DNA of 64,000 nucleotides from Oscillospiraceae bacterium (GTDB taxonomy: Bacteria > Bacillota > Clostridia > Oscillospirales > Oscillospiraceae): contig JAFQGT010000019.1 of assembly GCA_017415425.1 (NCBI GenBank), positions 112,392-176,391 on the forward strand, written 5' to 3'. The position numbers and the translations under genes are program-made. The notes below the pieces were generated by a model, which made no database searches, was not told the DNA's origin, and saw nothing but the letters and a program-made list of their open reading frames with translations. Numbering within the stretch: position 1 is the stretch's first letter; every line of letters starts with the position of its first letter. Positions 16,165 through 31,505 of the stretch are shown here, piece by piece.

Positions 16165-16174
16165 ATTGCACCTC

Positions 16175-17419
16175 TTACCGGATATGACCTGTACCGGTGA
16201 TGATATATTTGTAGCTTGTCAGTTCCCGAAGACCCATAGGTCCTCTGGCGTGGAGCTTCTGGGTGGAAATCCCCATTTCACAGCCAAGACCGAACTCGCC
16301 TCCGTCGGTGAAGCGGGTGGAAGCGTTTACATATACGGCAGCGCTGTCAACGCAGGAGGTAAAAATGTTTTTTGACTCCGGCGATTCTGTAATGATGGCT
16401 TCACTGTGTCCGGTAGAGTGGGACACAATATGGCTGACAGCCTCTTGAACACCGCTGACACATTTGACTGCCAGAATATAATCCAGAAATTCTGTATCAA
16501 AATCCTGGGGGCCTGCGGCAGTACCGGCGATAATCGCTGCAGCAGTTTTGTCCAGACGCAATTCTACGGGCGTCGACATTTTTCGGTTTTCCACAAGCCG
16601 TGTATAAAGCTTCGGCAGAAATTCACCGGCGATTTCATTGTCAACCAGCAGTACTTCTTCTGCGTTGCAAACGCTGGGACGGCTGGTTTTGGCGTTCTCA
16701 ATGATATTGAGTGCCATTTCTTGGTTTGCGGTTTTTTCCACATAGATGTGACAAATACCGGTTCCGGTAGCAATGCAGGGAACGGTGGCGTTCTGAACAC
16801 AGGCGTTGATCAGTCCGGCTCCGCCCCGGGGTATCAGCAGATCAACATAACCCTGAGCCTTCATCAGCGCTGTGGCGCTCTCACGGGAGGTATCAGAAAC
16901 CAAGTTCACGGCATTTTCTGTGATGCCAACCTTGCGCAGACCGGCACGCAGCGCGTTCACGATGGCATTGGCGGAACGATATGCCTCTTTGCCGCCCCGT
17001 AGGATGCACACATTGCCGCTTTTTAGAGTTAACGCGGCAGCATCGCTGGTTACATTCGGCCTGCTTTCATAAATAATGGCAACCACGCCGATAGGGGAGG
17101 ATATCTTCTGAATATGCAACCCGTCCGGTCGAACATACTCGTCCAGTTGCAGGCCAACCGGGTCCGGCAGCTGGGCAACGTCGCGAATTCCCTTAGCCAT
17201 ACCGGCAATCCGATCCGATGTCAGACACAGACGATCCAGCATAACCTGGGAAATGGTGCTGCCTGCTGATTTCATATCTGCTGCGTTTGCAGCAAGGATC
17301 GCATCTTGATTTTCCATCAGAGCATCTGCCATAGACAATAGCGCCTGATTTTTCTGCACTGTGGTCAGTTGAGCCACTTCAGTTTTTGCGGCCTTAGCGG
17401 CCAATAACATATCATTCAT
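16175..17419 (-). CDS. proA: Glutamate-5-semialdehyde dehydrogenase (gamma-glutamyl phosphate reductase)
   Basis: Second step of proline synthesis: NADPH reduction of gamma-glutamyl phosphate. The 414-residue length is standard. [23 protein letters not shown] and the catalytic-cysteine region [14 protein letters not shown] are clear, as is the C-terminal [20 protein letters not shown] motif. A longer frame opens 25 codons upstream inside proB, but ATG 17419 with GGAG nearby gives the conserved N-terminus. It overlaps proB by 8 bases, pointing to coupled translation of the two interacting enzymes. Confidence 0.96.
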
Positions 17420-18185
17420 AAGTCTGCTCCGTGAAGGTTGTACCGATGGGCTTTCCATCCATAATGTCATACAGATTGTCCGGGTTATTACCATTGGTAA
17501 TGATCATATCGCAGCCGCATTCCAGACAGATTCTGGCAGCCTCCAGTTTGGTTATCATACCTCCGGTTCCAAGGTTGCCGGCACTGCTGCCCGCCAAGTT
17601 ATACAAAGCTTCATCTACCTTATGTACCCGGCTGATTAGCTGCGCGTTGGGATCTTTGTGGGGATCTGCTGTGTATAGTCCGTCAATATCGGATAGTAAA
17701 ATCAGCTTATCTGCTTGAACGCTCTGTGCTACAATCGCAGCCAGTGTGTCATTATCACCGATCACGATCTCTTTCGTGGCAACGGTGTCATTTTCGTTGA
17801 TAACGGGAATGACACCAAGGTTCAAAAGACGGTGCAAGGTGGTGCTGAAATTACTGTGTCGGGTATCGTCCTCAATGTCCTCACCTGTAATCAGCAGTTG
17901 CGCGACGGTGTGATTGTATTTACTGAAGAGTTTATCATAAATGTACATCAGTTCGCACTGTCCAACCGCAGCGGCTGCCTGCTTAGTGGGGATATCCGTG
18001 GGCCGTTCCTGTAGACCCAATTTGCCCACACCCATTCCGATTGCGCCGGAGGATACCAGGATCAGTTCGTTGCCGGCGTTTTTGATATCACTCATAATTT
18101 TACAAAGAGCTTCCACCCGGCGAATATTCAAATGCCCTGTGGAGTAGGCCAGGGTACTGGTTCCAATTTTTATTACGATTCTCAA
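17412..18185 (-). CDS. proB: Glutamate 5-kinase (no PUA domain)
   Basis: First step of proline synthesis: ATP phosphorylation of glutamate. The 257-residue chain comprises only the amino-acid-kinase domain; the C-terminal PUA domain found in E. coli ProB is missing, as in many Firmicutes. Motifs include [31 protein letters not shown] and [12 protein letters not shown]. The best start is a TTG at 18185 preceded by GGGAGAG, because the conserved RIVIKIGTS begins directly there; no ATG fits. A frame open further upstream has no ribosome site. Proline feedback inhibition is expected from the family. Confidence 0.92.
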
Positions 18186-18215
18186 GCAGATCTCTCCCTT
18201 CTTTGCACTGATGAC

Positions 18216-18244
18216 ATTATATATCCGATTAAGCGGTAAATAAA
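18216..18244 (-). promoter_or_regulatory. Putative promoter of proBAC
   Basis: Minus-strand TATAAT (18216-18221) with a weak -35 TTTATT (18239-18244) at 17 bases. It lies about 30 bases before the proB TTG start. Confidence 0.5.
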
Positions 18245-18278
18245 GAGGGAAAATTAAAATATTTATCAAATTTGGGAC

Positions 18279-18306: not shown

Positions 18307-18452
18307 ATAGAGATAGAAGATTTGGTTGAAATTTTTAGCGATTTATTATATGATATTGTGTGGAACAGAATACACTTAGTTTGTTGATTAAGTCTATCTG
18401 TTTTCTTGAAATTATATTTACACACAGTTCAGTGTTGAAAGGGAGGATATAT

Positions 18453-19829
18453 ATGGAATATCGGATCGAACACGATTCTATGGGTGAGGTTAAAGTTCCC
18501 TGTGATAAATATTGGGGTGCGCAAACCCAGAGAAGCCACCAGAATTTTCCCATTGGAGTCGGTATTGAAACGATGCCTAGGGAGATTACCCACGCATTTG
18601 GTATTTTAAAAAAAGCTGCTGCGATGGCAAACCATCAACTGCGTCCGGAAAAGATGACCGAGCAGAAACTGCAGGCAATTTCTGCGGCCTGTGATGAAAT
18701 AATCTCCGGAAGCTTGAATGATCATTTTCCGCTGGTTGTTTGGCAAACCGGTTCCGGCACACAGTCCAATATGAATGCCAACGAGGTGATTGCCAATCGG
18801 GGCAATGAGATCGCCGGCAGCAAGCTCCTACATCCCAATGATGATATCAATATGAGTCAGTCTTCCAACGATACCTTTCCCACAGCAATGCACATTGCTG
18901 CTGTTGCTGCCATTGAAGACAAGGTCTTTCCGGCGATCGATCAGTTGGTTGCAACGCTCCGCCGATTGGAGGAAGAAAATCAGGGGATTGTTAAGTCTGG
19001 AAGAACCCATTTACAGGATGCAACCCCCATCTCATTCAGCCAGGAAATTTCCGGTTGGAGAAGCAGTTTAGAAAAGGATAAGGCACTGCTGGAGCTGTCC
19101 CTGCCGGAGCTGAAGAAGCTGGCTCTGGGCGGCACAGCGGTAGGCACCGGTCTGAATGCACCCAAGGGCTTTGATGTTGCGGTTGCAGATGCTGTTTCTC
19201 AGCTGACCGGCAAGCGCTTCTACACCGAAGAAAACAAGTTCCATTCCTTGACCTCCAAGGACGAGTTGGTCTTTGCCCACGGCGGTCTGAAAGCGCTGGC
19301 GGCCGATCTGATGAAGATCGCAAACGATGTTCGCTGGCTGGCATCCGGTCCTCGGGACGGTCTGGGTGAGATATTCATTCCGGAGAATGAGCCAGGTTCT
19401 TCCATTATGCCCGGCAAGGTCAACCCCACTCAGTGTGAGGCAGTGACGATGGTTGCCGTGCAGGTTATGGGTAACGATGTGGCAGTTGGAATTGCCGCTT
19501 CTCAAGGCAATTTCGAATTGAACGTGTTTATGCCGGTGTGTATTTATAATTTCCTGCAGTCTGCTCGACTTCTGGCAGACGCAATGAATTCCTTCCACGG
19601 CAACTGCGTGGTTGGTATCAAGGCAAATAAAGAGAAGATGGCACACAATCTGCACAACTCTTTGATGCTGGTTACGGCGCTCAATCCCTACATCGGTTAC
19701 GAAAATGCCGCTAAGACTGCAAAGCTGGCATATAAAGAAAATATCAGCCTGAAGGAGGCCTGTGTGAAGCTGGGCTTCCTGACGGCCGAACGATTTGACG
19801 AGGTGTTCCATCCGGAACAGATGATTTGA
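18453..19829 (+). CDS. fumC: Class II fumarate hydratase
   Basis: Interconverts malate and fumarate without an iron-sulfur cluster. The 458-residue protein has the superfamily signature [11 protein letters not shown] near residue 315, substrate motifs [14 protein letters not shown] and [11 protein letters not shown], and the [10 protein letters not shown] segment. ATG 18453 follows GGGAGGATATAT; an earlier in-frame start lacks a ribosome site. It is the first gene of an operon leading through Hdr-type subunits to fumarate-reductase subunits, so its likely role is to make fumarate from malate as an internal electron acceptor rather than to run an oxidative TCA cycle. Confidence 0.97.
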
Positions 19830-19846
19830 ATTAAAGGTGAATGGAT

Positions 19847-20638
19847 ATGACATATTCTTATTTTCCGGGTTGTACCCTAAGAACCAAGGGCAAAGAACTG
19901 GATCAGTGGGGCAGAGCTGCAGCGGAAGTGCTGGGCTTTGCACTGGAAGAGCCTGAGAACTGGCAGTGCTGCGGTGCGGTTTATCCTATGGCTAAGGATG
20001 AGATCGCTACCCGTTTGTCCTCTGTGCGTGTATTGGCAGATGCCAAGGCGCAGGGCAGGGAATTGGTGACTCTGTGTTCTGCCTGCCACCACGTGATCAA
20101 GCGTGTTAACGGTGATATGCAGCGGGATGCAGATATCTGCGATAAGGTAAACCGGTACTTAAAGTTAGATACTCCCTATGCAGGCGAGACCAATGTGCTG
20201 CATTATCTGGAGGTGCTCCGTGACCGGATCGGTTTTGATGCTTTAAAAGAAAAGGTGGTTCACCCCTTAACCGGTGTGAAGATCGGCGCGTACTACGGCT
20301 GTCTTCTGCTTCGTCCCGGCAAGGAGATGGGCTTTGATAATCCCGAGAACCCCAGAATTCTGGAGGACTTCATTCGCGCGATTGGCGCAGAGCCTGTGAT
20401 CTATGCCCGTAGAAATGAGTGCTGCGGCGGTTATTGCACCCTTGAAAACAAATCTTATGCTACCAAGCAGGTGGACAAGATTATGGACAATGCAAAAGCA
20501 CAGGGCGCACAGATGCTGATTACGGCCTGTCCCTTGTGTATGTATAATCTGAAAGAGAATGCCACCAATGGCCTGGATGTGAAGTATTTCACAGAGCTGT
20601 TGGCACAGGCACTGGGTGTAAAGGAGGAAGCAAAATGA
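19847..20638 (+). CDS. hdrB: Heterodisulfide reductase-like subunit HdrB
   Basis: A 263-residue protein with two CCG domains, which in HdrB bind noncubane iron-sulfur clusters at the disulfide-reducing site. The first domain uses an early Cys (YFPGCT), CCGAVYP near residue 40 and CSACHH near 76. The second uses CLLLRPG, CCGGYC near 191 and CPLC near 228. The frame has an ATG two codons earlier, but the second ATG is better spaced from AAAGGTG. The hdrC start overlaps its stop. In methanogens the substrate is CoM-S-S-CoB; here no such cofactor is expected, so the disulfide or acceptor served is unknown. Confidence 0.9.
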   Translation: MTYSYFPGCTLRTKGKELDQWGRAAAEVLGFALEEPENWQCCGAVYPMAKDEIATRLSSVRVLADAKAQGRELVTLCSACHHVIKRVNGDMQRDADICDKVNRYLKLDTPYAGETNVLHYLEVLRDRIGFDALKEKVVHPLTGVKIGAYYGCLLLRPGKEMGFDNPENPRILEDFIRAIGAEPVIYARRNECCGGYCTLENKSYATKQVDKIMDNAKAQGAQMLITACPLCMYNLKENATNGLDVKYFTELLAQALGVKEEAK

Positions 20639-21006
20639 TGGAAACCATTCGGCGGATCTCCGGTGTAAATCCCAGAAAATGTATGAAGTGCGGCAAATGT
20701 ACCGCGTCTTGTCCCGCCTATGATGAGATGGAATTCCATCCCCATCAGTTTGTGGATATGGTAGAAACCGGTCGTATTGAGGAACTGATGCAATCTAAGG
20801 GTATTTATACCTGTTTGAGTTGCTTTGCCTGCGTAGAGCGATGCCCCAGAAGTGTAGAACCTGCCAAGTTGATCGAAGCTGTTCGTCTGGCTGTGCTTCG
20901 CCAGCAAAACGAGAATCATTTGACTGCCAATGACATTGCGGAAAAGCTGGATCCGGAGCTGCCTCAGCAGGCGATCACCAGCGCATTCCGTAAATACAGA
21001 AAGTAA
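20635..21006 (+). CDS. hdrC: Heterodisulfide reductase-like subunit HdrC
   Basis: A 123-residue iron-sulfur protein with two [4Fe-4S] motifs (CMKCGKCTASCPAYDE and CLSCFACVERCPRSVEP). In Hdr complexes this subunit carries electrons between HdrA and the HdrB active site. Overlap with hdrB and the 14-base gap to hdrA indicate co-translation. Length and motif spacing fit the family well. There is no membrane helix, so this is the soluble Hdr type and not the HdrDE type. Confidence 0.9.
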   Translation: MMETIRRISGVNPRKCMKCGKCTASCPAYDEMEFHPHQFVDMVETGRIEELMQSKGIYTCLSCFACVERCPRSVEPAKLIEAVRLAVLRQQNENHLTANDIAEKLDPELPQQAITSAFRKYRK

Positions 21007-21020
21007 GGAGGGAAGACTCT

Positions 21021-23009
21021 ATGCAGAGAATCGGCGTATTTGTCTGCTGGTGTGGCAGTAACATTGCCGCGACAGTAGATGTTGAGAAGGTTTCTCAGGT
21101 TCTTGCACAGGAACCCGGAGTCGTCTTCTCTACCAACTATCAATATATGTGCTCTCAGGCTGGTCAGGAGATGATCCAGGAGAGCATTCATAAGTATCAA
21201 CTCACCGGCGTGGTCATCTGCTCCTGCTCTCCCAGAATGCACGAGGCAACATTCCGTAAGACCTGTGAAAAAGCCGGTTTGAACGCGCATATGGTGGAGA
21301 TCGCCAATATCCGCGAGCAGTGCTCTTGGATCCATAAGGATATGGCTACCGGCACGGAGAAGGCTGTGATCCTGGGTCGTGCTGCCATTGCAAAAGTGCA
21401 CTTGAATGCACCTCTGACTGCCGGACAGTCTCCGGTTAAAAAGCGTGCGCTGGTGATTGGAGGCGGTATCGCCGGTATCCAGACTGCTTTGGATATTGCA
21501 GATGCGGGTTTTGATGTAGATATTGTGGAAAAGCAGCCTACCATCGGCGGCAAGATGACACAGATCGATAAGACATTCCCCACTCTCGACTGTGCGGCTT
21601 GTATTTTGACCCCCAAGATGGTGGATGCCGCCCAGCACGAGAAGATCCACATCTACTCTTATGCAGAGGTAGAGAAGGTTAAGGGTTTTGTTGGCAACTT
21701 CCAGGTTACCATTAAGAAAAAGGCTCGTTATGTGGACGAGACAAAGTGTACTGGTTGCGGATTGTGTACAGAGAAGTGTCCCCAGAAGAAAGTACCCAAT
21801 GCATTCAATCTTGGTCTTGATAACCGCCGTGCCATTTACATCCCCTTTGCCCAGGCTGTACCCAAGATCGCAACAATCGATGCCGATTACTGCACGATGC
21901 TCAAATCCGGTAAGTGCGGTGTTTGCTCTAAGGTTTGTACTGCAGGCGCTATTGATTACAAGCAGACCGATACATATATCGAAGAAGAATATGGCGCCAT
22001 CGTGGTTGCTACCGGCTTTAATCCCATTAAGCTGGACAAGTACGATGAATTTGCCTACTCCCAGAGTCCCGATGTGGTGACCAGTCTGGAGTTTGAGCGC
22101 TTGATGAATGCTGCAGGCCCTACCGGCGGTACACTGCTGCGCCCCTCTGACGGAGCACATCCGCACACCATCGTCTTTGTCCAGTGTGTGGGATCCCGCT
22201 GTGATGATGAGAAGGGCAAGCCCTATTGTTCTAAGATCTGCTGTATGTACACCGCAAAGCACGCTATGCTCTGTCGCGAAAAATATCCCGATACGGACGT
22301 ATATGTGTTCTACATCGATGTGCGTACCCCTGGTAAGAACTTTGATGAGTTCTACCGCCGCGCGGTGGAGGAATACGGCGTCCACTATATCAAGGGTATG
22401 GTTGGCAAAGTTGTGCCCCAGGATGGCAAGCTGAAGGTCCAGGCATCGGATCTGTTGGGCGGCAGTCAGCTGCATATCGAAGCAGATATGGTGGTTCTGG
22501 CTGCTGCTATTGAGCCGGACGAAACCGCCCGGCCTCTGGCAACGATGCTGACCGCATCGATGGATACCAATGACTTTTTCACAGAGGCACACCCCAAACT
22601 GCGTCCTGTGGAGAGCCCCACAGCCGGTATTTTCCTGTCCGGCGCTTGCCAGGGTCCCAAGGACATTCCCGAGACGGTAGCACAAGCCAGTGCCGCCGCG
22701 GCAAAGGTGATCGGCCTGCTTTGCAAAGACAGCCTGACCTGCAACCCCTGCACTGCCCAGCCGGATGAACTGATGTGTAACGGATGCAGCAGCTGCGAAA
22801 AGGTGTGTCCTTACGGTGCAATTACTTATGCAGATAAAGAGTTCCGTGGACCAAACCGGACGACTCTGCTGCGGAGAGTGGCACAGGTTAATCCTGCGGT
22901 TTGTCAAGGTTGCGGCGCTTGTACTGTGGCTTGTCCCAGCGGTGCTATGGACCTGAAGGGCTTCTCTAATCAACAAATTATGGCGGAGGTGGATGCAATA
23001 TGTCGGTAA
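21021..23009 (+). CDS. hdrA: Heterodisulfide reductase-like subunit HdrA (FAD, iron-sulfur)
   Basis: A 662-residue flavoprotein. An N-terminal region (CWCGSN near residue 10, CSCSPRMHE near 70) precedes the FAD-binding Rossmann motif VIGGGIAGIQTALDIA near residue 147 and the family segment GGKMTQIDKTFPTLDCAACILTPKMV. Two ferredoxin-like motifs lie mid-protein (CTGCGLCTEKCPQ near 243; CGVCSKVC near 300) and two at the C-terminus (CNGCSSCEKVCPYG, CQGCGACTVACPSG). HdrA FAD is the electron-bifurcating centre in characterised Hdr complexes. No extra domain is fused. Neighbouring MvhD and Flx-like genes overlap, so it is probably the hub of this complex. Bifurcation here is inference. A long open frame on the opposite strand is a shadow. 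Confidence 0.92.
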   Translation: MQRIGVFVCWCGSNIAATVDVEKVSQVLAQEPGVVFSTNYQYMCSQAGQEMIQESIHKYQLTGVVICSCSPRMHEATFRKTCEKAGLNAHMVEIANIREQCSWIHKDMATGTEKAVILGRAAIAKVHLNAPLTAGQSPVKKRALVIGGGIAGIQTALDIADAGFDVDIVEKQPTIGGKMTQIDKTFPTLDCAACILTPKMVDAAQHEKIHIYSYAEVEKVKGFVGNFQVTIKKKARYVDETKCTGCGLCTEKCPQKKVPNAFNLGLDNRRAIYIPFAQAVPKIATIDADYCTMLKSGKCGVCSKVCTAGAIDYKQTDTYIEEEYGAIVVATGFNPIKLDKYDEFAYSQSPDVVTSLEFERLMNAAGPTGGTLLRPSDGAHPHTIVFVQCVGSRCDDEKGKPYCSKICCMYTAKHAMLCREKYPDTDVYVFYIDVRTPGKNFDEFYRRAVEEYGVHYIKGMVGKVVPQDGKLKVQASDLLGGSQLHIEADMVVLAAAIEPDETARPLATMLTASMDTNDFFTEAHPKLRPVESPTAGIFLSGACQGPKDIPETVAQASAAAAKVIGLLCKDSLTCNPCTAQPDELMCNGCSSCEKVCPYGAITYADKEFRGPNRTTLLRRVAQVNPAVCQGCGACTVACPSGAMDLKGFSNQQIMAEVDAICR

Positions 23010-23440
23010 CGGAAAATTTTAAGCCTACTATTGTTGCTTTTTGCTGCAACTGGTGCTCCTATGCTGGTGCTGACCTGTCCGGCACTAACCGGCTGCAGTA
23101 TCCTGCCAATGTAAAGATCATCCGTATCCCTTGCTCCTGCCGCTTGAACCCTATGTTCGTCCTCAGAGCATTCCAGAAGGGTGCAGACGGAGTGATCCTC
23201 TGCGGATGTCACCCCGGTGACTGTCACTACACCACCGGTAACTACTATGCCCGCCGCCGGATGACCCTGCTGTTCTCTTTGCTGGACTTTATGGGTATTG
23301 AGCGGGGTCGCACCCGTGTGGAATGGGTATCTGCGGCTGAGGGCGCCAAGTTTGCCGCTACGATGAATGAATTCACGGAAACCATTATGAAGCTGGGACC
23401 CAACCGGAGATTGGAGGATTTGCGATGCAGAAAAGATTAA
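23000..23440 (+). CDS. mvhD: MvhD/FlxD-like iron-sulfur subunit
   Basis: A 146-residue protein of the MvhD family, which passes electrons from a hydrogenase or an Flx module into HdrA through a [2Fe-2S] cluster. Conserved cysteines are in FCCNWCSYAGAD, PCSCRLN and CGCHPGDCHYTTGN. It overlaps hdrA upstream and the next iron-sulfur gene downstream. As no hydrogenase large or small subunit gene lies in the operon, it more likely works as FlxD, connecting an NADH-oxidising module to HdrA. Confidence 0.9.
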   Translation: MSVTENFKPTIVAFCCNWCSYAGADLSGTNRLQYPANVKIIRIPCSCRLNPMFVLRAFQKGADGVILCGCHPGDCHYTTGNYYARRRMTLLFSLLDFMGIERGRTRVEWVSAAEGAKFAATMNEFTETIMKLGPNRRLEDLRCRKD

Positions 23441-24402
23441 AAGAAAAAGCATTGGAACTTCTCTCCAATTGCACTGTCACAAGAGTTCTGGGTTGGAAAA
23501 CAGGCGAATTTTTCTATGATCTGACTCCTGCTGTGTTTGAAACAGCAGAGGAAGTGGAGAAGGAATTTGTCTATTCCGGATTCTCCGGTGCCAACCTTTC
23601 CAAGTACTTAATTCAGGAATCTCGCAAGCAAGGAAAAGTGGCTGTATTTCTGAAGCCCTGCGATTCCTACTCCTTCCAACAGCTGCTGAAAGAACACAGA
23701 ATCCTCCGGGAGAATGTGTATGTTGTGGGCATTTCCTGCAACGGTTTGTTGGATATGGAGAAAATCCGCGCACAGGGCTGCGAAGGTGTCACTGCCGTAA
23801 CAGAAGACGGCGATACACTGACCGTAGACACCCTGTATGGCACAACGAAACTGTCCCGGAACGATTGCCTGCTGGAGCGTTGTGCGGTCTGTAAGAGCAA
23901 GAAGATCGTTGCCTTTGACGAATTGATCGGTGAGCAAGGTGAGGAATTGGAGTCCAACCGTTTCGACCGTGTTGCAGAACTGGAAGCTATGACCCCGGAA
24001 GAGCGGTTTGCATTCTGGAGAGAAGAACTGTCCCGCTGTATTCGCTGCAACGCCTGCCGGAATGTATGTCCCGCCTGCAGCTGCGAAAAGTGTGTGTTCG
24101 ATAATGAGAAATCCGGTGTTCGCAACAAAGCAATTGCGGACTCTTTTGAAGAAAATCTGTTCCATATTATCCGTGCCTTCCACGTTGCTGGTCGATGCAC
24201 TGATTGCGGTGAATGCAGCCGTGTATGCCCTCAGAACATACCGCTGCACCTGCTGAACCGGAAGTTCATCAAGGACATCAATGAGTTCTACGGCGTTTAT
24301 CAGGCCGGTGCGGATATGGATACCAAGTCTCCATTGACGGACTTTACCCTGGATGACTGTGAACCCTCTATTGTTCACGAAAGAGGAGGTGTGCAGGGAT
24401 GA
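23425..24402 (+). CDS. FlxC-like 4Fe-4S electron-transfer subunit
   Basis: A 325-residue protein. The N-terminal ~190 residues resemble the FrhB/FdhB-like fold (AVFLKPCDSYSFQQLL; CNGLLDMEK), with cysteines LLERCAVCKSKK. The C-terminal part has two [4Fe-4S] motifs: CIRCNACRNVCPACSC near residue 205 and CTDCGECSRVCPQN near 258. In Desulfovibrio-type Flx-Hdr systems an equivalent subunit carries electrons between the NADH-oxidising flavoprotein and FlxD. Whether the FrhB-like part binds a flavin cannot be told here. The order flxD-C-B-A, with overlapping genes, supports the assignment. Confidence 0.75.
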   Translation: MQKRLKEKALELLSNCTVTRVLGWKTGEFFYDLTPAVFETAEEVEKEFVYSGFSGANLSKYLIQESRKQGKVAVFLKPCDSYSFQQLLKEHRILRENVYVVGISCNGLLDMEKIRAQGCEGVTAVTEDGDTLTVDTLYGTTKLSRNDCLLERCAVCKSKKIVAFDELIGEQGEELESNRFDRVAELEAMTPEERFAFWREELSRCIRCNACRNVCPACSCEKCVFDNEKSGVRNKAIADSFEENLFHIIRAFHVAGRCTDCGECSRVCPQNIPLHLLNRKFIKDINEFYGVYQAGADMDTKSPLTDFTLDDCEPSIVHERGGVQG

Positions 24403-25421
24403 AAAGAATTGCAGTAGAGAACCTACAAAGCCTGTTTGCAGCCGTTTCTGCTAAGAAGCAGCTGTACATACCCGCAGATGATAGCGCCGGGCAGGCTAAG
24501 TTTACCCTTTGGTCTGAGGGCACGGTTTTGACAGAAAAGCTCAATACTGTCCGAAGTGCAAAGGATCTGTTCTTCCCACAGGTGGAGAATTTGGTTAACT
24601 TCAAAGTCTCCAGTAAAAAAATCGAAATTTTGGAAAACCGAGATTCGTCAGAGCCTTTTGTGGTCTTCGGTGTCCGCGCCTGTGATTGCCGCAGCTTTGA
24701 TATTCTGGACACTGTTTTTTTGAGTGATCCGGTGGATACCTACTATCAGTCCCGCCGAGAGAACGGCCTTGTGATCACCCTTGCCTGCAATCGCCCTGCA
24801 GAGACTTGCTTCTGCGGTGTGTTCGGCATCGATGCATCTGATCCTGCCGGTGACGTTACCTGCTGGATGGATAAAGCGTATCTGTACTGGCGTGCTAATA
24901 CGGAAAGGGGACAGGAACTGACAAAAAGCCTCAGTGTTCTGGAAGATTGCGATGAAAGTAGTGTGGATGCGATCCGGGAAGCTAGCAAGCAGATTCTGCA
25001 GAAACTGCCTCTAAATGATTTGGATCTTACCGACTTCCGTGAAAACAAACTGCTGGATGTGTTTAATGACAGCGCTTGGGGTGAGCTTTCTGAGAGCTGT
25101 CTTGGCTGCGGCACTTGTACCTTTGTTTGTCCCACCTGCCAGTGTTATGATGTGCAGGATTTTGACAACGGCAGGGAAGTGCGCCGCTTCCGCTGTTGGG
25201 ATAGCTGTATGTACTCAGACTTCACAATGATGGCCCACGGAACAAACCGTCCCACACAGAAGGAACGGTTCCGTCAGCGCTTTATGCATAAGCTGGTGTA
25301 CTACCCCAATAACAATAATGGCGTGTTCGGCTGCGTAGGCTGCGGACGCTGCCTGCAAAAATGCCCCATCCATATGAATATTGTGAAAGTAACCAAGAAA
25401 CTGAAGGAGGGAATGGTATGA
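24399..25421 (+). CDS. FlxB-like 4Fe-4S dicluster subunit (hydrogenase beta-subunit family)
   Basis: A 340-residue protein related to the beta subunits of sulfhydrogenase and Flx systems. The first ~200 residues contain FGVRACDCRSFDILD and CNRPAETCFCGVFG, typical of the 4Fe-4S dicluster family N-terminus. The C-terminal third has CLGCGTCTFVCPTCQC near residue 234 and CVGCGRCLQKCPIH near 311. Its ATG overlaps the preceding stop and its own stop overlaps the next start. Expected role: electron relay between the FlxA-like flavoprotein and the remaining iron-sulfur chain. Confidence 0.8.
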   Translation: MKRIAVENLQSLFAAVSAKKQLYIPADDSAGQAKFTLWSEGTVLTEKLNTVRSAKDLFFPQVENLVNFKVSSKKIEILENRDSSEPFVVFGVRACDCRSFDILDTVFLSDPVDTYYQSRRENGLVITLACNRPAETCFCGVFGIDASDPAGDVTCWMDKAYLYWRANTERGQELTKSLSVLEDCDESSVDAIREASKQILQKLPLNDLDLTDFRENKLLDVFNDSAWGELSESCLGCGTCTFVCPTCQCYDVQDFDNGREVRRFRCWDSCMYSDFTMMAHGTNRPTQKERFRQRFMHKLVYYPNNNNGVFGCVGCGRCLQKCPIHMNIVKVTKKLKEGMV

Positions 25422-26242
25422 GACAAGATCCTTTGATCCCTATGCTGGGTGAAGTGACCGCGATCCGCACCGACACTCCCGATGTAAAGACCTTTCGTGT
25501 GATGGGTGTGGACGGAGAAAAGCCCTTTGTTCACATTCCCGGACAGTGCGCAATGCTGTCTATGCCCGGCGTGGGCGAGGCGCTGTTTTCCATCACTTCG
25601 TCTCCAACAGAACCGTATCTGGATTTCTCTATCAAAAAGTGCGGCTGCGTGACCTCCTGGCTCCACGCAATGGAGGTGGGTCAGCAAATCACGATCCGTG
25701 GCCCTTACGGCAACGGCTTCCCGGTGGATACGGAGCTGGCAGGGAGGGATTTGCTGTTCATTGCCGGCGGTATTGGTTTGGCACCGCTGCATTCGGTTAT
25801 CAACTATTGCCGTCATTACCGCGACCGCTACGGCAAGATCGATATTGTTTATGGCTCCCGCTCCAAGGACGATCTGGTGGATTTCCCTGAAATTGAAAAC
25901 GAGTGGTGCAAAGAAGCAGGCATCAATGTGCATTTGACCATTGATAATCCTCAGGAGGGCTGGGATGGCCACGTAGGCTTTGTTCCCAACTTTGTAAAGG
26001 AATTGGCCTTTGACACCAATAAGACTGTTTTGATGTGCGGACCTCCCATTATGATCAAATTTACACTGGCCGGTCTACTGGAACTGGGCTTCTCTCGGGA
26101 ACAAGTGTATACCACTATGGAACTGCGGATGAAGTGCGCGTTGGGTAAGTGTGGACGGTGCAATATTGGTGATAAGTATGTCTGCAAGGATGGCCCTGTC
26201 TTCCGGCTGGATCAGTTGGATGAGCTGCCGGATGAATACTAA
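25418..26242 (+). CDS. FlxA-like FAD/NAD(P)-binding subunit
   Basis: A 274-residue oxidoreductase of the ferredoxin-NADP reductase/PyrK/HydG/AsrB family. It has an FAD-binding barrel (GQCAMLSMPGVGE, then FSITSSP), an NAD(P)-binding domain with FIAGGIGLAPLHSV near residue 113, and a C-terminal cysteine cluster (CALGKCGRCNIGDKYVC) that holds a [2Fe-2S] centre in relatives. ATG 25418 is chosen because GGAGG lies 7 bases before it and the start overlaps the upstream stop; an earlier frame start has no ribosome site. It is the probable NADH entry point of the complex. NADH versus NADPH cannot be decided. Confidence 0.85.
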   Translation: MRQDPLIPMLGEVTAIRTDTPDVKTFRVMGVDGEKPFVHIPGQCAMLSMPGVGEALFSITSSPTEPYLDFSIKKCGCVTSWLHAMEVGQQITIRGPYGNGFPVDTELAGRDLLFIAGGIGLAPLHSVINYCRHYRDRYGKIDIVYGSRSKDDLVDFPEIENEWCKEAGINVHLTIDNPQEGWDGHVGFVPNFVKELAFDTNKTVLMCGPPIMIKFTLAGLLELGFSREQVYTTMELRMKCALGKCGRCNIGDKYVCKDGPVFRLDQLDELPDEY

Positions 26243-26254
26243 GGAGAGTTTGGA

Positions 26255-26929
26255 ATGGAAAATTTAGTGACTGTTTACTTCTTTGGTAAGAAGTACCAGG
26301 TTCCCGAGAGCCTGACAATTATGGAGGCTATGGAGTATGCCGGCTATCAGCTGGTTCGTGGCTGCGGCTGCCGCAACGGCTTCTGCGGCGCTTGCGCAAC
26401 CATCTATCGTATCGCCGGTGACCGTACCCTGAAGACCTGCCTGGCCTGCTCCACCAAGGTGGAGGACAATATGTATGTGGCGACTTTGCCGTTCTTCCCG
26501 CTGGTAAAGGCTGTATATGATATTGAAAAGGTAAAGCCCACCGAGCAGATCATGATGCAGCTGTACCCGGAGATATACGCCTGCATTGGCTGCAACGCCT
26601 GCACAAATGCCTGCACACAAGGTCTGAATGTTATGCAGTATATCGCCTACGCACAGCGTGGTGAGTATGAAAAGTGCGCTGAAGAGTCCTTTGACTGCGT
26701 GATGTGCGGTGTATGTTCTGCCCGTTGTCCTGCAGAGATCTCCCATCCTCAGGTTGCAATGCTGGCACGTCGACTGAATGGTAAATATCTTGCGCCCCAC
26801 TGCGATCATCTGGATGAGCGGATCGCAGAGATCAACGGCGGTAAGTATGAGTTGCTGCTGGAGGATTTGATGGGTAAGCCCATCTCCGAAATGCAAGAGC
26901 TTTACAACAACCGTGAAATCGAGAAATAA
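26255..26929 (+). CDS. frdB: Fumarate reductase-type iron-sulfur subunit (2Fe-2S + two 4Fe-4S)
   Basis: A 224-residue soluble protein. Residues 1-90 form a ferredoxin-type domain with the [2Fe-2S] pattern CRNGFCGAC plus CLAC near 65. The second half has two motifs: CIGCNACTNACTQGL near 109 and CVMCGVCSARCPAEIS near 148. Both read as full CxxCxxCxxxC [4Fe-4S] sites, whereas classical FrdB/SdhB has one [3Fe-4S] cluster facing the quinone. No membrane-anchor subunits lie in the operon, which fits a non-quinone partner such as the Hdr/Flx proteins encoded just upstream. It probably feeds electrons to the flavoprotein encoded 13 bases downstream. Confidence 0.8.
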   Translation: MENLVTVYFFGKKYQVPESLTIMEAMEYAGYQLVRGCGCRNGFCGACATIYRIAGDRTLKTCLACSTKVEDNMYVATLPFFPLVKAVYDIEKVKPTEQIMMQLYPEIYACIGCNACTNACTQGLNVMQYIAYAQRGEYEKCAEESFDCVMCGVCSARCPAEISHPQVAMLARRLNGKYLAPHCDHLDERIAEINGGKYELLLEDLMGKPISEMQELYNNREIEK

Positions 26930-26942
26930 GGAGGTCTGTGCT

Positions 26943-28550
26943 ATGTATTTTGATCCGATTATGCAGGAATCCATTAAAAAAGTGGAAGCTGCCAGAGAAG
27001 CCAATATTCGCATGGACCCCAGAAGAATGACCGCAGAGGAAAAGGACGTTTTGCTGAAGACCTACCACCCTGACTATAAGACCGCGGAGTTCACTGAACT
27101 GAAAATGGGTCCCAATAAGGGCGGTAAGGTTCCTGTTGAGCTGGCGGAACTGCTGCAGGGCAACCCTCGCATCACGCCGGAGCAGGTGGATTTGACTAAG
27201 CCCGACTACGATGTGGATGTTCTGATCATCGGCGGCGGCGGCGCAGGTGCATCTGCGGCTATCGAGGCCCACCAAAATGGCGCCAATGTAATGATCGTTA
27301 CCAAGCTGAGAATTGGCGATGCCAACACAATGATGGCAGAGGGCGGCATTCAGGCAGCTGACAAGCCCGGTGACAGCCCTGCACAGCATTATCTAGATGC
27401 ATTTGGCGGCGGTCATTTCGCCGCACAGAAGGATCTGCTGTATAAGTTGGTCAACGATGCCCCCGAGGCGATTCGTTGGCTGTCTGAGCTGGGTGTGGAA
27501 TTTGACAAAGCACCTGACGGTACGATGATCACCACCCACGGCGGCGGTACATCCCGGAAGAGAATGCACGCAGCCAAGGACTATTCCGGCGCTGAGATCA
27601 TGCGTACTCTTCGTGACGAGGTGTTGAATCGCCAGATTCCTGTTGTGGATTTTACATCTGTGATCGAACTGATCAAGGATGAAAGCGGATGTTGTGCAGG
27701 CGCTGTTCTGCAAAATATGGAAACCAAGGAACTGCTAGTTGCAAAGGCAAAGACTGTCATTATGGCTACCGGCGGTGCAGGACGTTTGCATTATCAAGGT
27801 TTCCCCACATCTAACCACTATGGTGCTACTGCTGACGGCCTGGTGCTGGCTTATCGCGCAGGCGCACGGCTGTTGTATCCCGAGACGCTGCAGTATCATC
27901 CTACTGGTGCAGCATTTCCTGCACAGATTTACGGCGCACTGGTAACCGAAAAGGTGCGCTCTGTTGGTGCTATGCTGGTTAACGCCAACGGTGAAGTGTT
28001 TATGAATCCCCTGGAGACTCGTGACGTGTCCGCAGCATCCATCATTCGGGAGTGTACCGACCGCGGTAACGGCGTTCCCACTCCGGAAGGCTTCGGCATT
28101 TGGCTGGATACACCTATGATTGAGATCAAGAACGGCACCGGCACAATCGAAAAGAGAATTCCTGCAATGATGCGTATGTTTGCAAAGCACGGAATCGATA
28201 TTCGCAAAGAGCCGATTCTGATCTATCCCACTCTGCACTACCAGAATGGTGGTCTGAAGATTACAGATGACGGCCAGACCGATATTGAAAACCTCTATGC
28301 AGCCGGTGAGGTTGTCGGCGGCATCCACGGCCGTAACAGATTGATGGGCAATAGCCTGTTGGATATTATTGTTTTCGGCAGAAACGCCGGCCGTCACGCA
28401 TCCCAAAAGGCAAAAGAGGTTTCAGTCGGTCAACTGACACTGGACCATCTGAATGCGTTCAATCAAGAGCGAGCTAATGCCGGAATCACCACCGATACAT
28501 TGTCCCCTCGTTTGCTGCCTGACTATACCAGACGTCGTAACACTCTTTAA
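26943..28550 (+). CDS. frdA: Soluble fumarate reductase/succinate dehydrogenase-type flavoprotein
   Basis: A 535-residue flavoprotein with an N-terminal ~90-residue extension before the FAD-binding motif LIIGGGGAGASAA. Catalytic features are conserved: THGGGTSRKR, LQYHPTG near residue 319, LETRDVSAASI, the HYQNGG histidine near 432, and HGRNRLMGNSL near 463. At the position where membrane fumarate reductases carry the FAD-linking histidine (SHT), this protein reads ANT, so FAD is probably bound noncovalently, as in L-aspartate oxidase and several soluble fumarate reductases. ATG 26943 follows AAGGAGGTCTGTGCT. Operon context (fumarase first, Hdr/Flx next) argues for fumarate reduction over succinate or aspartate oxidation; no nadA or nadC is nearby. 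Confidence 0.87.
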   Translation: MYFDPIMQESIKKVEAAREANIRMDPRRMTAEEKDVLLKTYHPDYKTAEFTELKMGPNKGGKVPVELAELLQGNPRITPEQVDLTKPDYDVDVLIIGGGGAGASAAIEAHQNGANVMIVTKLRIGDANTMMAEGGIQAADKPGDSPAQHYLDAFGGGHFAAQKDLLYKLVNDAPEAIRWLSELGVEFDKAPDGTMITTHGGGTSRKRMHAAKDYSGAEIMRTLRDEVLNRQIPVVDFTSVIELIKDESGCCAGAVLQNMETKELLVAKAKTVIMATGGAGRLHYQGFPTSNHYGATADGLVLAYRAGARLLYPETLQYHPTGAAFPAQIYGALVTEKVRSVGAMLVNANGEVFMNPLETRDVSAASIIRECTDRGNGVPTPEGFGIWLDTPMIEIKNGTGTIEKRIPAMMRMFAKHGIDIRKEPILIYPTLHYQNGGLKITDDGQTDIENLYAAGEVVGGIHGRNRLMGNSLLDIIVFGRNAGRHASQKAKEVSVGQLTLDHLNAFNQERANAGITTDTLSPRLLPDYTRRRNTL

Positions 28551-28563
28551 TGGGGGATGAACG

Positions 28564-29826
28564 ATGGAATTGTTTGATGGCGTTATTCGCGTTATGGGCG
28601 TCCCTTTTATGATGCTCTTTTTGATGGTGATTGTCTGCCTGGGTTACCTTCTGGGCCGAATTACCATTAAGGGCATTTCCTTGGGTACTGCCGGTGTATT
28701 TGTTGTGGCATTGCTTTTTGGTGCACTGTTCTATGAGGATTTCAAGGAGATTTTAGGTTCCGCAGCTACTGCCAAAAATGGCTTGAAAATCGCAGAGAAT
28801 ATGGGTCTTGTTTTCTTTGTTACATCGGTGGGTTTTATTGCCGGTCCGAAGTTCTTCAATAACCTTAAGAAAAATTTTAAGTCCTATATACTTTTGGGTG
28901 CTTCGATCATTCTGGCAGGTGGCCTGTCCTGTGTGCTTTGCTACTTTGTGGGTAGAGGTTTTGAAGACGATCACAAGGAATTTATTGCGATTCTGGATGG
29001 TCTACTGTCCGGCGCGCTGACTACTACACCCGGCTTTACCGCCGCGAAGGATACTGTTGTAAACTTCTATGCAGCCAATCCGGAACTAGCAGCCCGCTAT
29101 GAGTCCGCGGTAACGGTAGGTTACGGCATCGCGTATCTGTTTGGCGTTATTGGTGTGGTGCTGTTTGTCCAGCTTATCCCCAAGCTCGCCAAGGCCAATA
29201 TGGAAGAAGAACGCAAGAAAATCACCAGTGTTGATCTGGGTACAGCCAAGGTTCACTCAGGCAAGCTTTTGGAAATTGACGATATGGGATTGTGCGCATT
29301 TGCAGCAGCTGCTGCGGTGGGCTTGATTATCGGAAATATCCGCGTCCCTCTGTCCGGTAAGGGTTTAGATGGCATCTGCTTCTCTTTGACTACCACAGGT
29401 GGTGCTCTGGTTTCCTCTTTGGTATTTGGTCATTTCTCCAGAATTGGTCGCATCAGTATTATGCCCCCTACAAAAACCTTGAAGAATCTGCGGGAATTGG
29501 GTCTGATGCTGTTCCTGGCCGGTGCTGGTATCTCCGGCGGTGCCGATTTCGTCAAATTCTTTAAGCCGATCTATTTCCTGTATGGCGCAGTAATGACGAT
29601 TTTGCCGCTAATTGTAGGTTTCTTGATTGCAAAGTATCTGCTGAAATTGCCTCTGCTGAATAGCCTGGGCTCTATTACCGGCGGTATGACCTCCACGCCT
29701 GCGTTGGGTACACTGATTAATGTATGCCGTACTGAGGATGTGGCAGCTGCCTACGCAGCAACATATCCCATTGCTCTGCTGGCTGTGGTGCTGGTTTCCC
29801 AGTTCTTGATCATACTGTTTGGATAA
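28564..29826 (+). CDS. AspT/YidE-family membrane transporter (likely dicarboxylate or amino acid exchanger)
   Basis: A 420-residue integral membrane protein with about ten hydrophobic segments arranged in two related halves. GALTTTPGFTAA in the first half and GGMTSTPALGTL in the second are the paired signatures of the aspartate:alanine exchanger family (Asp-Al_Ex). The RCK-like domain found in many family members is absent; only a short charged loop (near residues 215-235) lies between the halves. It is the last gene of the fumarase-fumarate reductase operon, so import of aspartate or malate and/or export of succinate is a reasonable inference. Substrate is not shown by the sequence. Confidence 0.75.
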   Translation: MELFDGVIRVMGVPFMMLFLMVIVCLGYLLGRITIKGISLGTAGVFVVALLFGALFYEDFKEILGSAATAKNGLKIAENMGLVFFVTSVGFIAGPKFFNNLKKNFKSYILLGASIILAGGLSCVLCYFVGRGFEDDHKEFIAILDGLLSGALTTTPGFTAAKDTVVNFYAANPELAARYESAVTVGYGIAYLFGVIGVVLFVQLIPKLAKANMEEERKKITSVDLGTAKVHSGKLLEIDDMGLCAFAAAAAVGLIIGNIRVPLSGKGLDGICFSLTTTGGALVSSLVFGHFSRIGRISIMPPTKTLKNLRELGLMLFLAGAGISGGADFVKFFKPIYFLYGAVMTILPLIVGFLIAKYLLKLPLLNSLGSITGGMTSTPALGTLINVCRTEDVAAAYAATYPIALLAVVLVSQFLIILFG

Positions 29827-29837
29827 CACAATAATAA

Positions 29838-29868
29838 AGCAAGCGCTGCAAAATTTGCAGCGCTTGCT
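29838..29868. terminator. Bidirectional terminator between the fumarate operon and putP
   Basis: Perfect 12-bp stem AGCAAGCGCTGC / GCAGCGCTTGCT with an AAAATTT loop, flanked by CATTTTTG on one strand and TTTATTATTG on the other. It lies between convergent genes. Confidence 0.88.
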
Positions 29869-29896
29869 CATTTTTGTAGATAAATAAATTGGTTGG

Positions 29897-31465
29897 TTAC
29901 TGTACTGCGGACTTTTTCTTTCCTGCTACAAGATCAAATTCATTTTGAATTTCTGCAGAAGGAGGCGGGGTAATCAAGGAAATTACAATGATGAACAGGC
30001 AGGATATTATGAATGCAGGAAGCAGCTCGTAGATATTCCAAATACCGCCAAGAGGACGGATTAGCAGTTTCCAGACAAAGACCATAATTCCGCCTGATAA
30101 CATACCGGCAATGGCACCTGCGCGGTTGATGCGTTTCCAGAAAAGGCTCATCAGCATCAGAGGTCCAAAAACAGCGCCAAAGCCAGCCCAGGCAAAGCTG
30201 ACAATGGTAAAAATAACGCTATTCTCGTCAGCGGCAATCAGCATAGCAACGATGGAAATAACCAAGAGGGTAATTCTTGTCATACGCATAACTTGCTTTT
30301 CGCTGGCTTTTTTGTAGCAAATGCCTTGATAGATATTCTTAGCCAGTGCAGATGCGGCGATCAGCAGATAAGAATCAGAAGAGCTGATGGTTGCGGCAAG
30401 AATACCTGCCATAATAAAGCCTGCAAGAATGGGAGGCAGCAGATTGCTGGACATAACAATGAAGATGTTCTCAGAGGCAGAAGAGGTAGTCAGTGCGGTG
30501 GGGAACAATGCACGCCCTGCAATGCCAATAAAGACTGCTACAGCAAGGGAGATAACAACCCAAATGCTGGCAATGCGGCGGGAGCGGGGCAGTTCTCCCT
30601 CAGACCGGATTGCCATAAATCGCAGGAGCACCTGGGGCATACCGAAGTAACCGAGACCCCAAGCCATACACGATGCGATAGAAAGTGCGCCATAGGAGCC
30701 TGCAGCACCAAAGAGTGGTTTTCCGTCAGCTACTTGTTGTACGCCGTCAACGGTTACAGGTGCTGCAATGCCAAAGAAATCAAAGAATCCGGGAATGGAC
30801 CTGGCGTTAGATACAACCGCATCCAAACCGCCTGCAGAGATCGTACCAACAACGACGACAACAGTAAGAGCAACGATCATTACGATTGCCTGCATAAAGT
30901 CTGATACACTTTCTGCCAGGAAGCCGCCCAGAATGGTATACAGAAGTACGAACACTGCCCCCAGAATCATCATAGGTACGTATGGCATATCAAAGAGTGT
31001 GGTGAACAGCTTGCCGCAGGTAACAAAGCAGCTGGATGCGTATACGGTAAAGAAAATGAGAATGAATACGGCGGCAATGCTCATAATCAACTTGCGCTTC
31101 TCCTGGAATCGGTTGGAGAAGAATTCCGGAAGCGTAATGGCTTCACCGGCCTGCTCGCTATACCTGCGCAGGCGCTTGGATACGATCAGCCAGTTGAGAT
31201 ATGTTCCTACCGCAAGACCGATGGCTGTCCAGACGGCGTCGGATACACCGCACCAGTAAGCAACACCGGGCAGGCCCATCAACAGCCAACCGGACATATC
31301 GGACGCCTCGGCGCTCATTGCAGTAACCCAAGGTCCAAGCTTACGTCCACCAAGGAAATACTCCTTGGAATTCTGATTCGCACGCTTTGTAAACCATAAA
31401 CCGATTGCAATTACTACACTCATATACAGAACCATAGCAATCAGTATTTGCAATGTACTATCCAT
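29897..31465 (-). CDS. putP: Sodium:solute symporter, proline type (PutP)
   Basis: A 522-residue membrane protein of the SSS family with about 13 hydrophobic segments. EYFLGGRKLGPWVTAMSAEASDMSGWLL is the Na+/substrate-site region of PutP-type symporters, and GFIMAGILAATISSSDSYLL in helix 8 carries the second Na+ site. Overall it matches Na+/proline symporters in length and order of segments. ATG 31465 is preceded by GGAGGGATAAAA; the frame opens 13 codons earlier without a ribosome site. Proline as substrate is inferred from similarity; proBAC lies about 12 kb away, so there is no operon link. Confidence 0.88.
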   Translation of the reverse strand: MDSTLQILIAMVLYMSVVIAIGLWFTKRANQNSKEYFLGGRKLGPWVTAMSAEASDMSGWLLMGLPGVAYWCGVSDAVWTAIGLAVGTYLNWLIVSKRLRRYSEQAGEAITLPEFFSNRFQEKRKLIMSIAAVFILIFFTVYASSCFVTCGKLFTTLFDMPYVPMMILGAVFVLLYTILGGFLAESVSDFMQAIVMIVALTVVVVVGTISAGGLDAVVSNARSIPGFFDFFGIAAPVTVDGVQQVADGKPLFGAAGSYGALSIASCMAWGLGYFGMPQVLLRFMAIRSEGELPRSRRIASIWVVISLAVAVFIGIAGRALFPTALTTSSASENIFIVMSSNLLPPILAGFIMAGILAATISSSDSYLLIAASALAKNIYQGICYKKASEKQVMRMTRITLLVISIVAMLIAADENSVIFTIVSFAWAGFGAVFGPLMLMSLFWKRINRAGAIAGMLSGGIMVFVWKLLIRPLGGIWNIYELLPAFIISCLFIIVISLITPPPSAEIQNEFDLVAGKKKSAVQ

Positions 31466-31505
31466 TTTTATCCCTCCGTGCATTGTAATATTTGTGTACT
31501 TCATA

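Follow-up and report, generated by a model that had tools for sequence, protein, structure and literature searches.

The 64,000-nucleotide stretch of DNA analysed here, referred to as the window, comes from an Oscillospiraceae bacterium (contig JAFQGT010000019.1 of assembly GCA_017415425.1) and contains, at positions 18453-29826, an operon in which a fumarase gene, the seven genes of an HdrABC-FlxABCD module, a pair of fumarate reductase genes (frdBA) and a transporter gene follow one another. The operon is real and conserved, and it adds a good further example to a proposed type of bifurcating fumarate reductase that has already been described. With a probability that we put at roughly 60%, it encodes a soluble electron-bifurcating NADH:ferredoxin/fumarate oxidoreductase together with the functions that handle its substrate and product. 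The parts of this reading are not equally firm: fumarate is very likely the acceptor of this Hdr module, bifurcation is likely, and a direct wire between the Hdr and Frd parts is moderately favoured over a thiol shuttle. The comparative evidence for a partnership of HdrB with FrdA, and for FrdBA as a portable core, is new as far as could be found.

Conservation and genomic context of the operon

The first-pass annotation had described eleven genes on one strand, and the open reading frames (ORFs) and the family searches bear out both the arrangement and the gene labels. Likewise, Pfam detected no hydrogenase gene and no cytochrome b gene among the eleven, and the genome has no match to Sdh_cyt (PF01127, E-value 0.001), which confirms that the operon lacks a hydrogenase and a quinone-linked membrane anchor. 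In the 80 best matches among named loci, a sample biased to near kin, the nine-gene core HdrBCA-FlxDCBA-FrdBA is complete and in the same order in 62; contig ends truncate the remaining 18, and no locus with sufficient room is missing a core gene. This conservation rules out a chance arrangement. Ruminococcus flavefaciens FD-1 carries all eleven genes, and Blautia glucerasea carries the nine-gene core. Of these 80 loci, 54 have a fumC match upstream of the module, 8 have none despite sufficient room, and 18 are too short to tell; for the transporter, the corresponding counts are 56, 14 and 10. In close genomes the core is complete in 14 of 15, the 15th being cut. The linkage that had been postulated is thus complete in the close kin of the window.

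Among 60 relatives, this FrdA is present in 16 (own genome included) at an identity of at least 69%; for the next-best matches, identity along the greater part of the protein is 35% or less, and a few short stretches give higher values. In the phylum it was found in 39 of 398 genomes (own included), at 52% or more over near full length, the next matches being at 42% or less. Apart from the genome of the window, 38 phylum genomes have FrdA; frdBA lies beside hdr genes in 20 of them, is not so placed within the fetched stretch in 15, and is cut in three (G178, G426 and G310). The expectation that frdAB is always tied to Hdr/Flx therefore fails at this distance, and four of the 15 have neither an FlpD match (E-value 0.001) nor an HdrB match (E-value 1e-25).

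Several arrangements are seen where frdBA and hdr genes are neighbours. One genome (G295) has the order HdrCB-HdrA-Flx-FrdBA, with hdrC and hdrB swapped; four distant genomes have the same nine genes reordered as FrdBA-HdrBCA-FlxDCBA; ten genomes have HdrCB, HdrA and a double-length HdrA at frdBA (two of them cut inside HdrA), to which a related locus in G315 can be added; and four genomes have HdrCB-FrdBA only, without HdrA or Flx in the fetched stretch and with other Hdr clusters elsewhere in the genome. The double-length HdrA (approx. 1070 residues, two HdrA-like halves) stands beside a normal HdrA next to frdBA, as in locus L087 (6466-9678, in frdA orientation) and similar loci; loci of this type contain FlxD and an FlxC-like gene, and no FlxA or FlxB match was found in the locus.

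The remaining contexts have no hdr genes in the fetched stretch; in all contexts, neighbour names come from one scanned member per cluster, and the genes were called by a simple longest-ORF caller that also yields spurious antisense ORFs. In five genomes with room, frdBA occurs with fumarase and malic enzyme genes and without Hdr in the locus, and in G276, where the upstream flank is cut, with a gene of the malate/lactate-dehydrogenase family. Other neighbours are multihaem cytochromes (G095, G403), membrane Fe-S proteins (G144), a cytochrome b561 with an Fe-S domain (G089, G134), pyruvate carboxylase (G126, G328, G401) and thiamine genes (G122). In locus L082 (7766-11203) two multihaem cytochromes of the NapC/c7 type, with six CxxCH motifs each, precede frdBA; L082 and L096 (7607-11223, in frdA orientation) have flavin mononucleotide-binding and membrane Fe-S proteins in common; and in L078 an ORF of 139 residues before frdB carries four CxxCH motifs. 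These loci suggest respiratory versions of the same FrdBA core. Directly after frdA, L079 (2962-3951) encodes a fusion of cytochrome b561 with a dicluster ferredoxin, and L080 has a matching gene; this fusion is possibly another donor or anchor for FrdBA.

An HdrB lineage that accompanies FrdA

The association of HdrB with FrdA goes beyond gene order. FlpD (E-value 0.001) was found in 15 of the 16 close genomes that have FrdA (own included), the one that lacks it (G014) being 58% complete, and in none of 19 close genomes without FrdA, which were picked for a completeness of at least 92% from 44 such relatives. HdrB proteins were searched at an E-value of 1e-25, and those that score at least 208 bits to the window HdrB are here called Frd-type. 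A Frd-type HdrB is present in 28 of the 398 phylum genomes (own included), all of which have FrdA, and in none of the 359 genomes without FrdA; the next score below 208 bits, 192.5 bits, belongs to a genome without FrdA. The 27 other genomes span ten family codes, and the co-occurrence gives a Fisher p of 2e-33, uncorrected for kinship.

In seven of the 28 genomes (G069, G376, G228, G394, G276, G252 and G144) FrdBA and the Frd-type HdrB are unlinked. In the tree, the Frd-type HdrBs form a clade of 46 rows (support 100/99) that contains the seven unlinked HdrBs, and the 12 other HdrBs, which are those fetched and not all that exist, fall outside it. A clade restricted to linked HdrBs was rejected by the approximately unbiased test (p 1e-10), for a group chosen after the tree was seen. 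The FrdA and HdrB distances correlate with r 0.84 over 45 protein pairs and with r 0.62 over the comparisons that involve unlinked ones, both values being inflated by shared ancestry. Locus L067 encodes two HdrBs, and one of them falls with the Frd type. Eleven genomes with FrdA have no scored Frd-type HdrB, and in three of them (G178, G426 and G292) the hdr genes run into the contig edge.

From these results and the linkage in close kin, the earlier idea of an NADH-fed Hdr-Flx module that has fumarate as its end acceptor and no quinone anchor is supported, while its bifurcation is a part that we infer.

Genes of the operon

All eleven ORFs are on the plus strand, with neighbouring genes spaced by -16 to +14 nucleotides. 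The first, fumC (18453..19829; Pfam Lyase_1 and FumaraseC_C), encodes a predicted class II fumarase of 458 residues that would convert malate to fumarate. It is followed by hdrB (19841..20638), the Frd-type HdrB of 265 residues with two CCG domains and all ten cluster cysteines, and by hdrC (20635..21006), a wire subunit of 123 residues with two [4Fe-4S] clusters, both recognised by family searches. The product of hdrA (21021..23009) is a flavin adenine dinucleotide (FAD) subunit of 662 residues, the presumed bifurcating centre, that matches the NCBIfam HdrA2 model with 791 bits over 3-660, below the cut-off of 1100. The gene flxD (mvhD/flpD; 23000..23440; Pfam FlpD, E=1.9e-55) encodes a protein of 146 residues that presumably links HdrA with the donor module; it aligns with the end of the HdrA2 model (644-774) and is the single FlpD match of the genome. 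For flxC (23425..24402), a dicluster Fe-S protein of 325 residues, only Fe-S domains were detected, and the name comes from its position and its kinship to Flx loci. The flxB product (24399..25421) is a HydB/AsrA-like Fe-S protein of 340 residues (NCBIfam HydB 183 bits, AsrA 138 bits, both below cut-off), and that of flxA (25418..26242), with 274 residues, is the predicted electron-input subunit, binding FAD and NAD(H) (Pfam NAD_binding_1 and DHODB_Fe-S_bind; NCBIfam AsrB/HydG). The first start listed for flxA, 25361, overlaps flxB by 61 nucleotides, and the in-frame ATG at 25418 was used as the likely start. The last gene (28564..29826) encodes a transporter of 420 residues that family searches place in the AspT/YidE family (Asp-Al_Ex), likely a dicarboxylate/succinate exporter.

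The cluster cysteines are fully kept: the ten CCG cysteines of HdrB in 95/95 proteins, the eight of HdrC in 95/95, and those of the C-terminal cluster of HdrA (586-638) in 96/96. These and the following residue counts omit proteins outside the length or score limit, with 94 of 94 loci plus the window kept for HdrB, 127 of 131 for FrdB and 133 of 140 for FrdA. In nine loci of relatives (L203, L206, L208, L237, L238, L241, L242, L252 and L253) the flxD gene has one in-frame TGA, aligned with Cys70 of the window FlxD in 9/9, which is probably a selenocysteine codon.

A promoter-like site precedes the operon (18326-18354), and a terminator-like inverted repeat with a 15-pair stem and T-tails on both strands lies after the last gene (29837-29869). 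Such elements are only mildly enriched over shuffled sequence (terminator-like, 17 versus 11.3 expected; promoter-like, 20 versus 12.8). The flanking genes, named by eye, are on the minus strand: proC/proA/proB-like genes at 15376-18269 and a PutP-like symporter at 29897-31504.

The FrdBA reductase core

The flavoprotein gene frdA (26943..28550) encodes a fumarate reductase subunit of 535 residues, a member of the TfrA/SdhA/NadB superfamily, with an N-terminal extension of approx. 88 residues. When aligned with E. coli FrdA (1kf6), His319, Arg339, His432 and Arg466, whose positions we take to be those of the catalytic residues of fumarate reduction in the E. coli enzyme, were invariant in 134/134 proteins. 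At the place of the histidine that binds FAD covalently, Asn128 is found in 133/134 and histidine in one; covalent FAD goes with succinate oxidation. FrdA therefore has the catalytic histidine and arginine residues of the quinone-linked Sdh/Frd enzymes and lacks their covalent-FAD histidine. Its best NCBIfam match is TfrA, with 348 bits against a cut-off of 718, and the C-terminal SdhA domain was not found by Pfam. The structural model (predicted local distance difference test score, pLDDT, 82) has E. coli FrdA as its best PDB match by E-value, with a template modelling score (TM) of 0.69; fold alone cannot separate FrdA from NadB, because E. coli NadB matches the model equally (TM 0.69). Identity as an L-aspartate oxidase is disfavoured by the higher score for TfrA than for NadB (285 bits).

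The partner gene frdB (26255..26929; family searches) encodes a subunit of 224 residues with a [2Fe-2S] domain and an RnfC-like part with two [4Fe-4S] clusters. Cysteines 39, 44, 47 and 65 of the [2Fe-2S] site and the eight [4Fe-4S] cysteines are kept in 128/128 proteins; the dicluster part resembles RnfC and HdrC, and FrdB lacks the [3Fe-4S] pattern found in quinone-linked enzymes. The matches that Foldseek gave for the FrdB model (pLDDT 86), to RnfC, complex I and HdrC, were all partial, the best TM being 0.41.

Proposed mechanism and its setting in the host

In this family, NADH input takes place at FlxA and bifurcation at the FAD of HdrA. By analogy, fumarate supplied by the fumarase would be reduced as follows: NADH would pass a hydride to FlxA, from which electrons would reach the HdrA FAD through FlxB, FlxC and FlxD; HdrA would split the pair, sending the low-potential electron to ferredoxin and the high-potential electron to HdrC and HdrB; and the two non-cubane clusters of HdrB would hand it to the Fe-S chain of FrdB, then to the FrdA FAD and to fumarate, with no cleavage of a small disulfide. 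The overall reaction would be 2 NADH + fumarate + 2 Fd(ox) -> 2 NAD+ + succinate + 2 Fd(red), where Fd is ferredoxin. The relevant E0' values are -320, +33 and -420 mV (ferredoxin -500 mV in the cell), from which an energy release of about 33-49 kJ/mol was calculated.

The genome of the window is 97% complete, with 4.5% contamination. As ferredoxin oxidants, Rnf and Ech were considered, and no match was found for RnfC (E-value 1e-40), RnfD or PF00346 (E-value 0.001); the genome likewise has no match to UbiA (E-value 0.001), the one family of quinone synthesis that was searched. A quinol-linked fumarate reductase was rejected, as the genome has neither an Sdh_cyt nor a UbiA match. An [FeFe] hydrogenase is present and is the only candidate among the ferredoxin oxidants searched; its gene appears twice with identical scores, on contigs C6 and C38, which may reflect contamination or the duplication of a contig. 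Given this hydrogenase and the lack of an Rnf or Ech match, the most likely fate of reduced ferredoxin in this organism is H2 formation or biosynthesis; ferredoxin would then probably be reoxidised by the [FeFe] hydrogenase, and succinate would leave through the AspT-type carrier. The energy-conserving fumarate respiration that the first-pass annotation attributed to this organism is not supported by these results, and membrane-coupled respiration is unsupported because the genome has no match for Rnf, an Ech-type enzyme or quinone synthesis. RnfC is present in 61 of the 73 genomes searched, and relatives that carry it may gain an ion-pumping benefit.

Comparison with known systems

The published systems are compared here on the basis of excerpts of the cited papers. 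The combination had been regarded as new; nevertheless, the same operon and the same hypothesis are in print (PMC7282089), with a related proposal in PMC6315080. The "succinate operon" of Pseudoclostridium thermosuccinogenes, with the locus tags CDQ83_RS03315-03365, encodes a fumarase, a seven-gene Flx-Hdr module, a fumarate reductase of two genes and a putative succinate transporter (PMC7282089), and these are the same eleven functions, matched by function and not by sequence, with the same proposal of ferredoxin coupling, which was assumed there from an earlier preprint (10.20944/preprints201912.0288). CO2 limitation raised the expression of that operon about 4-fold, a change that was not significant for every subunit. 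Its host has Rnf and Ech, in contrast with the lack of a match for either in the genome of the window. No such operon was seen in the excerpts of PMC10579422, PMC6776011 and PMC8671834, and no report of a purified complex or of an Frd-specific HdrB clade was found in those of the open-access literature.

By domain family, all seven subunits of the FlxABCD-HdrABC complex of the Desulfovibrio type are present, including the NAD-binding FlxA and FlxD/FlpD; in contrast to that complex, the module of the window is linked with FrdBA by an HdrB that belongs to a clade of its own, and its acceptor would be fumarate. In tubeworm symbionts, Flx-Hdr lies with tfrAB, a thiol:fumarate-reductase-like pair, and a direct complex of Flx-Hdr with thiol:fumarate reductase was proposed (PMC6315080, PMC11636981 for the cluster); as described, that cluster differs in occurring with korABCD in autotrophic Gammaproteobacteria that use the reductive tricarboxylic acid cycle. 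The methanogen TfrAB has an FrdA-like flavoprotein, and FrdB, HdrC and HdrB match the TfrB model weakly (33-39 bits) at 19-94, 133-226 and 262-487, although the middle part could equally correspond to the dicluster of FrdB itself; the NCBIfam cut-off for TfrB, like that for TfrA, is not reached (38.5 versus 385 bits). Unlike TfrAB, the window has separate genes, an added HdrA and NADH module, and no CCG domain in the 224 residues of FrdB.

A precedent for a direct HdrB link is given by the E-type SQR/MFR enzymes (SdhABE), where an HdrB-related subunit with ten cysteines serves the SdhAB pair and SdhB has a second [4Fe-4S] cluster (PMC2680327); they differ from the system described here in that its genome has no UbiA match and its input is NADH through HdrA. 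In the MetFV-HdrABC-MvhD complex of Moorella thermoacetica, HdrABC-MvhD is likewise joined to a flavoprotein with a non-disulfide acceptor, in that case methylene-tetrahydrofolate, with the role of ferredoxin marked as uncertain (PMC5861303). The cytochrome b or membrane anchor of quinone-linked SdhABCD/FrdABCD was found neither in the operon nor in the genome searches.

Alternative explanations

Several observations weigh against the proposed enzyme. Four genomes (G126, G328, G401 and G122) have FrdBA without an FlpD or HdrB match, G401 having a different CCG protein of 723 residues, and their FrdAs fall inside the FrdA clade of the window in a quick tree (the branch of G122 is long and its place unsure); therefore, FrdBA can take electrons from another donor. 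In four others with FrdA (G095, G403, G089 and G134), the HdrBs are all of other types and the neighbours of frdBA are of cytochrome type. The tubeworm symbiont Hdr-Flx cluster was co-expressed except for tfrAB (PMC11636981). The Frd-type HdrBs are no more SdhE-like than other HdrBs (147-155 versus 155-190 bits), and the idea that they are recognisable as SdhE was rejected, the window HdrB scoring 155 bits against an NCBIfam cut-off of 500, with control HdrBs about equal or higher. With the methanogen HdrB model, three Frd-type proteins gave 129-146 bits versus 199-278 in five of six controls and 153 in the sixth; together, these model scores show an apparent drift from methanogen HdrB without a gain of SdhE likeness. 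Finally, since all ten CCG cysteines are kept, disulfide chemistry in HdrB is possible.

This last point favours a thiol shuttle between the Hdr module and FrdBA, as do the preference of FrdA for the TfrA model and the description of Flx-Hdr electrons going to ferredoxin "(and thiols)" (PMC7282089). Such a shuttle is nevertheless unlikely: TfrB includes an HdrB-like part (the window HdrB matches its positions 262-487) and FrdB has none, and the operon HdrB was the only CCG protein found in the genome (E-value 0.001), so that no known thiol-oxidising site is left; Pfam also recognised no thiol carrier in the operon. The single CCG protein, the dedicated HdrB lineage that follows FrdA and the loci with HdrCB-FrdBA only are the reasons why a direct wire is preferred. 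It is still less likely that Flx-Hdr-Frd reduces fumarate with NADH without bifurcation, in which case HdrA would be a wire and the sole function would be the disposal of NADH. Transfer from NADH to fumarate needs no coupling, and the genome has no Rnf or Ech match to profit from ferredoxin; however, HdrA as a mere wire would be a costly ornament, because full HdrA and FlxD are kept in untruncated close loci even though FrdBA loci without HdrA exist. In P. thermosuccinogenes, succinate was nearly abolished at 85% H2, which was read as fitting ferredoxin coupling; this is weak evidence, since Na2S had the opposite effect in that same earlier study (PMC7282089). Very improbable is a mere neighbourhood, in which Hdr-Flx has another acceptor, the operon is shared for regulation, and FrdBA is fed by ferredoxin or another donor. 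The at least four genomes with FrdBA and no FlpD or HdrB match speak for it, as do the frdBA genes beside multihaem cytochromes (two loci) and a cytochrome b561/Fe-S protein (two loci); against it, the Frd-type HdrB occurs solely in genomes with FrdA, even when unlinked, and by the FlpD count this is the sole Flx-Hdr set in the genome.

Implications

A broader proposal can be made only tentatively. A dedicated HdrB lineage may have turned the non-cubane Fe-S clusters of a heterodisulfide reductase, a disulfide-cleaving site, into a wire that joins a bifurcating NADH module to a portable FrdBA core. Elsewhere, the partner of the same core would be cytochrome b561, multihaem cytochromes, a doubled HdrA or just HdrCB. 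On this view, succinate formation in gut Clostridia, R. flavefaciens among them, would rely on a soluble fumarate reductase that reduces ferredoxin at the same time. The comparative data single out HdrB-FrdB as the contact of interest, and the presence of the operon in R. flavefaciens FD-1 and of its core in B. glucerasea makes the published proposal testable in named organisms. If true, it would explain succinate formation in anaerobes in which no gene of quinone synthesis is found, and ferredoxin would be reduced along with every fumarate, which would shift the balance of H2, acetate and ATP in gut and rumen fermentation.

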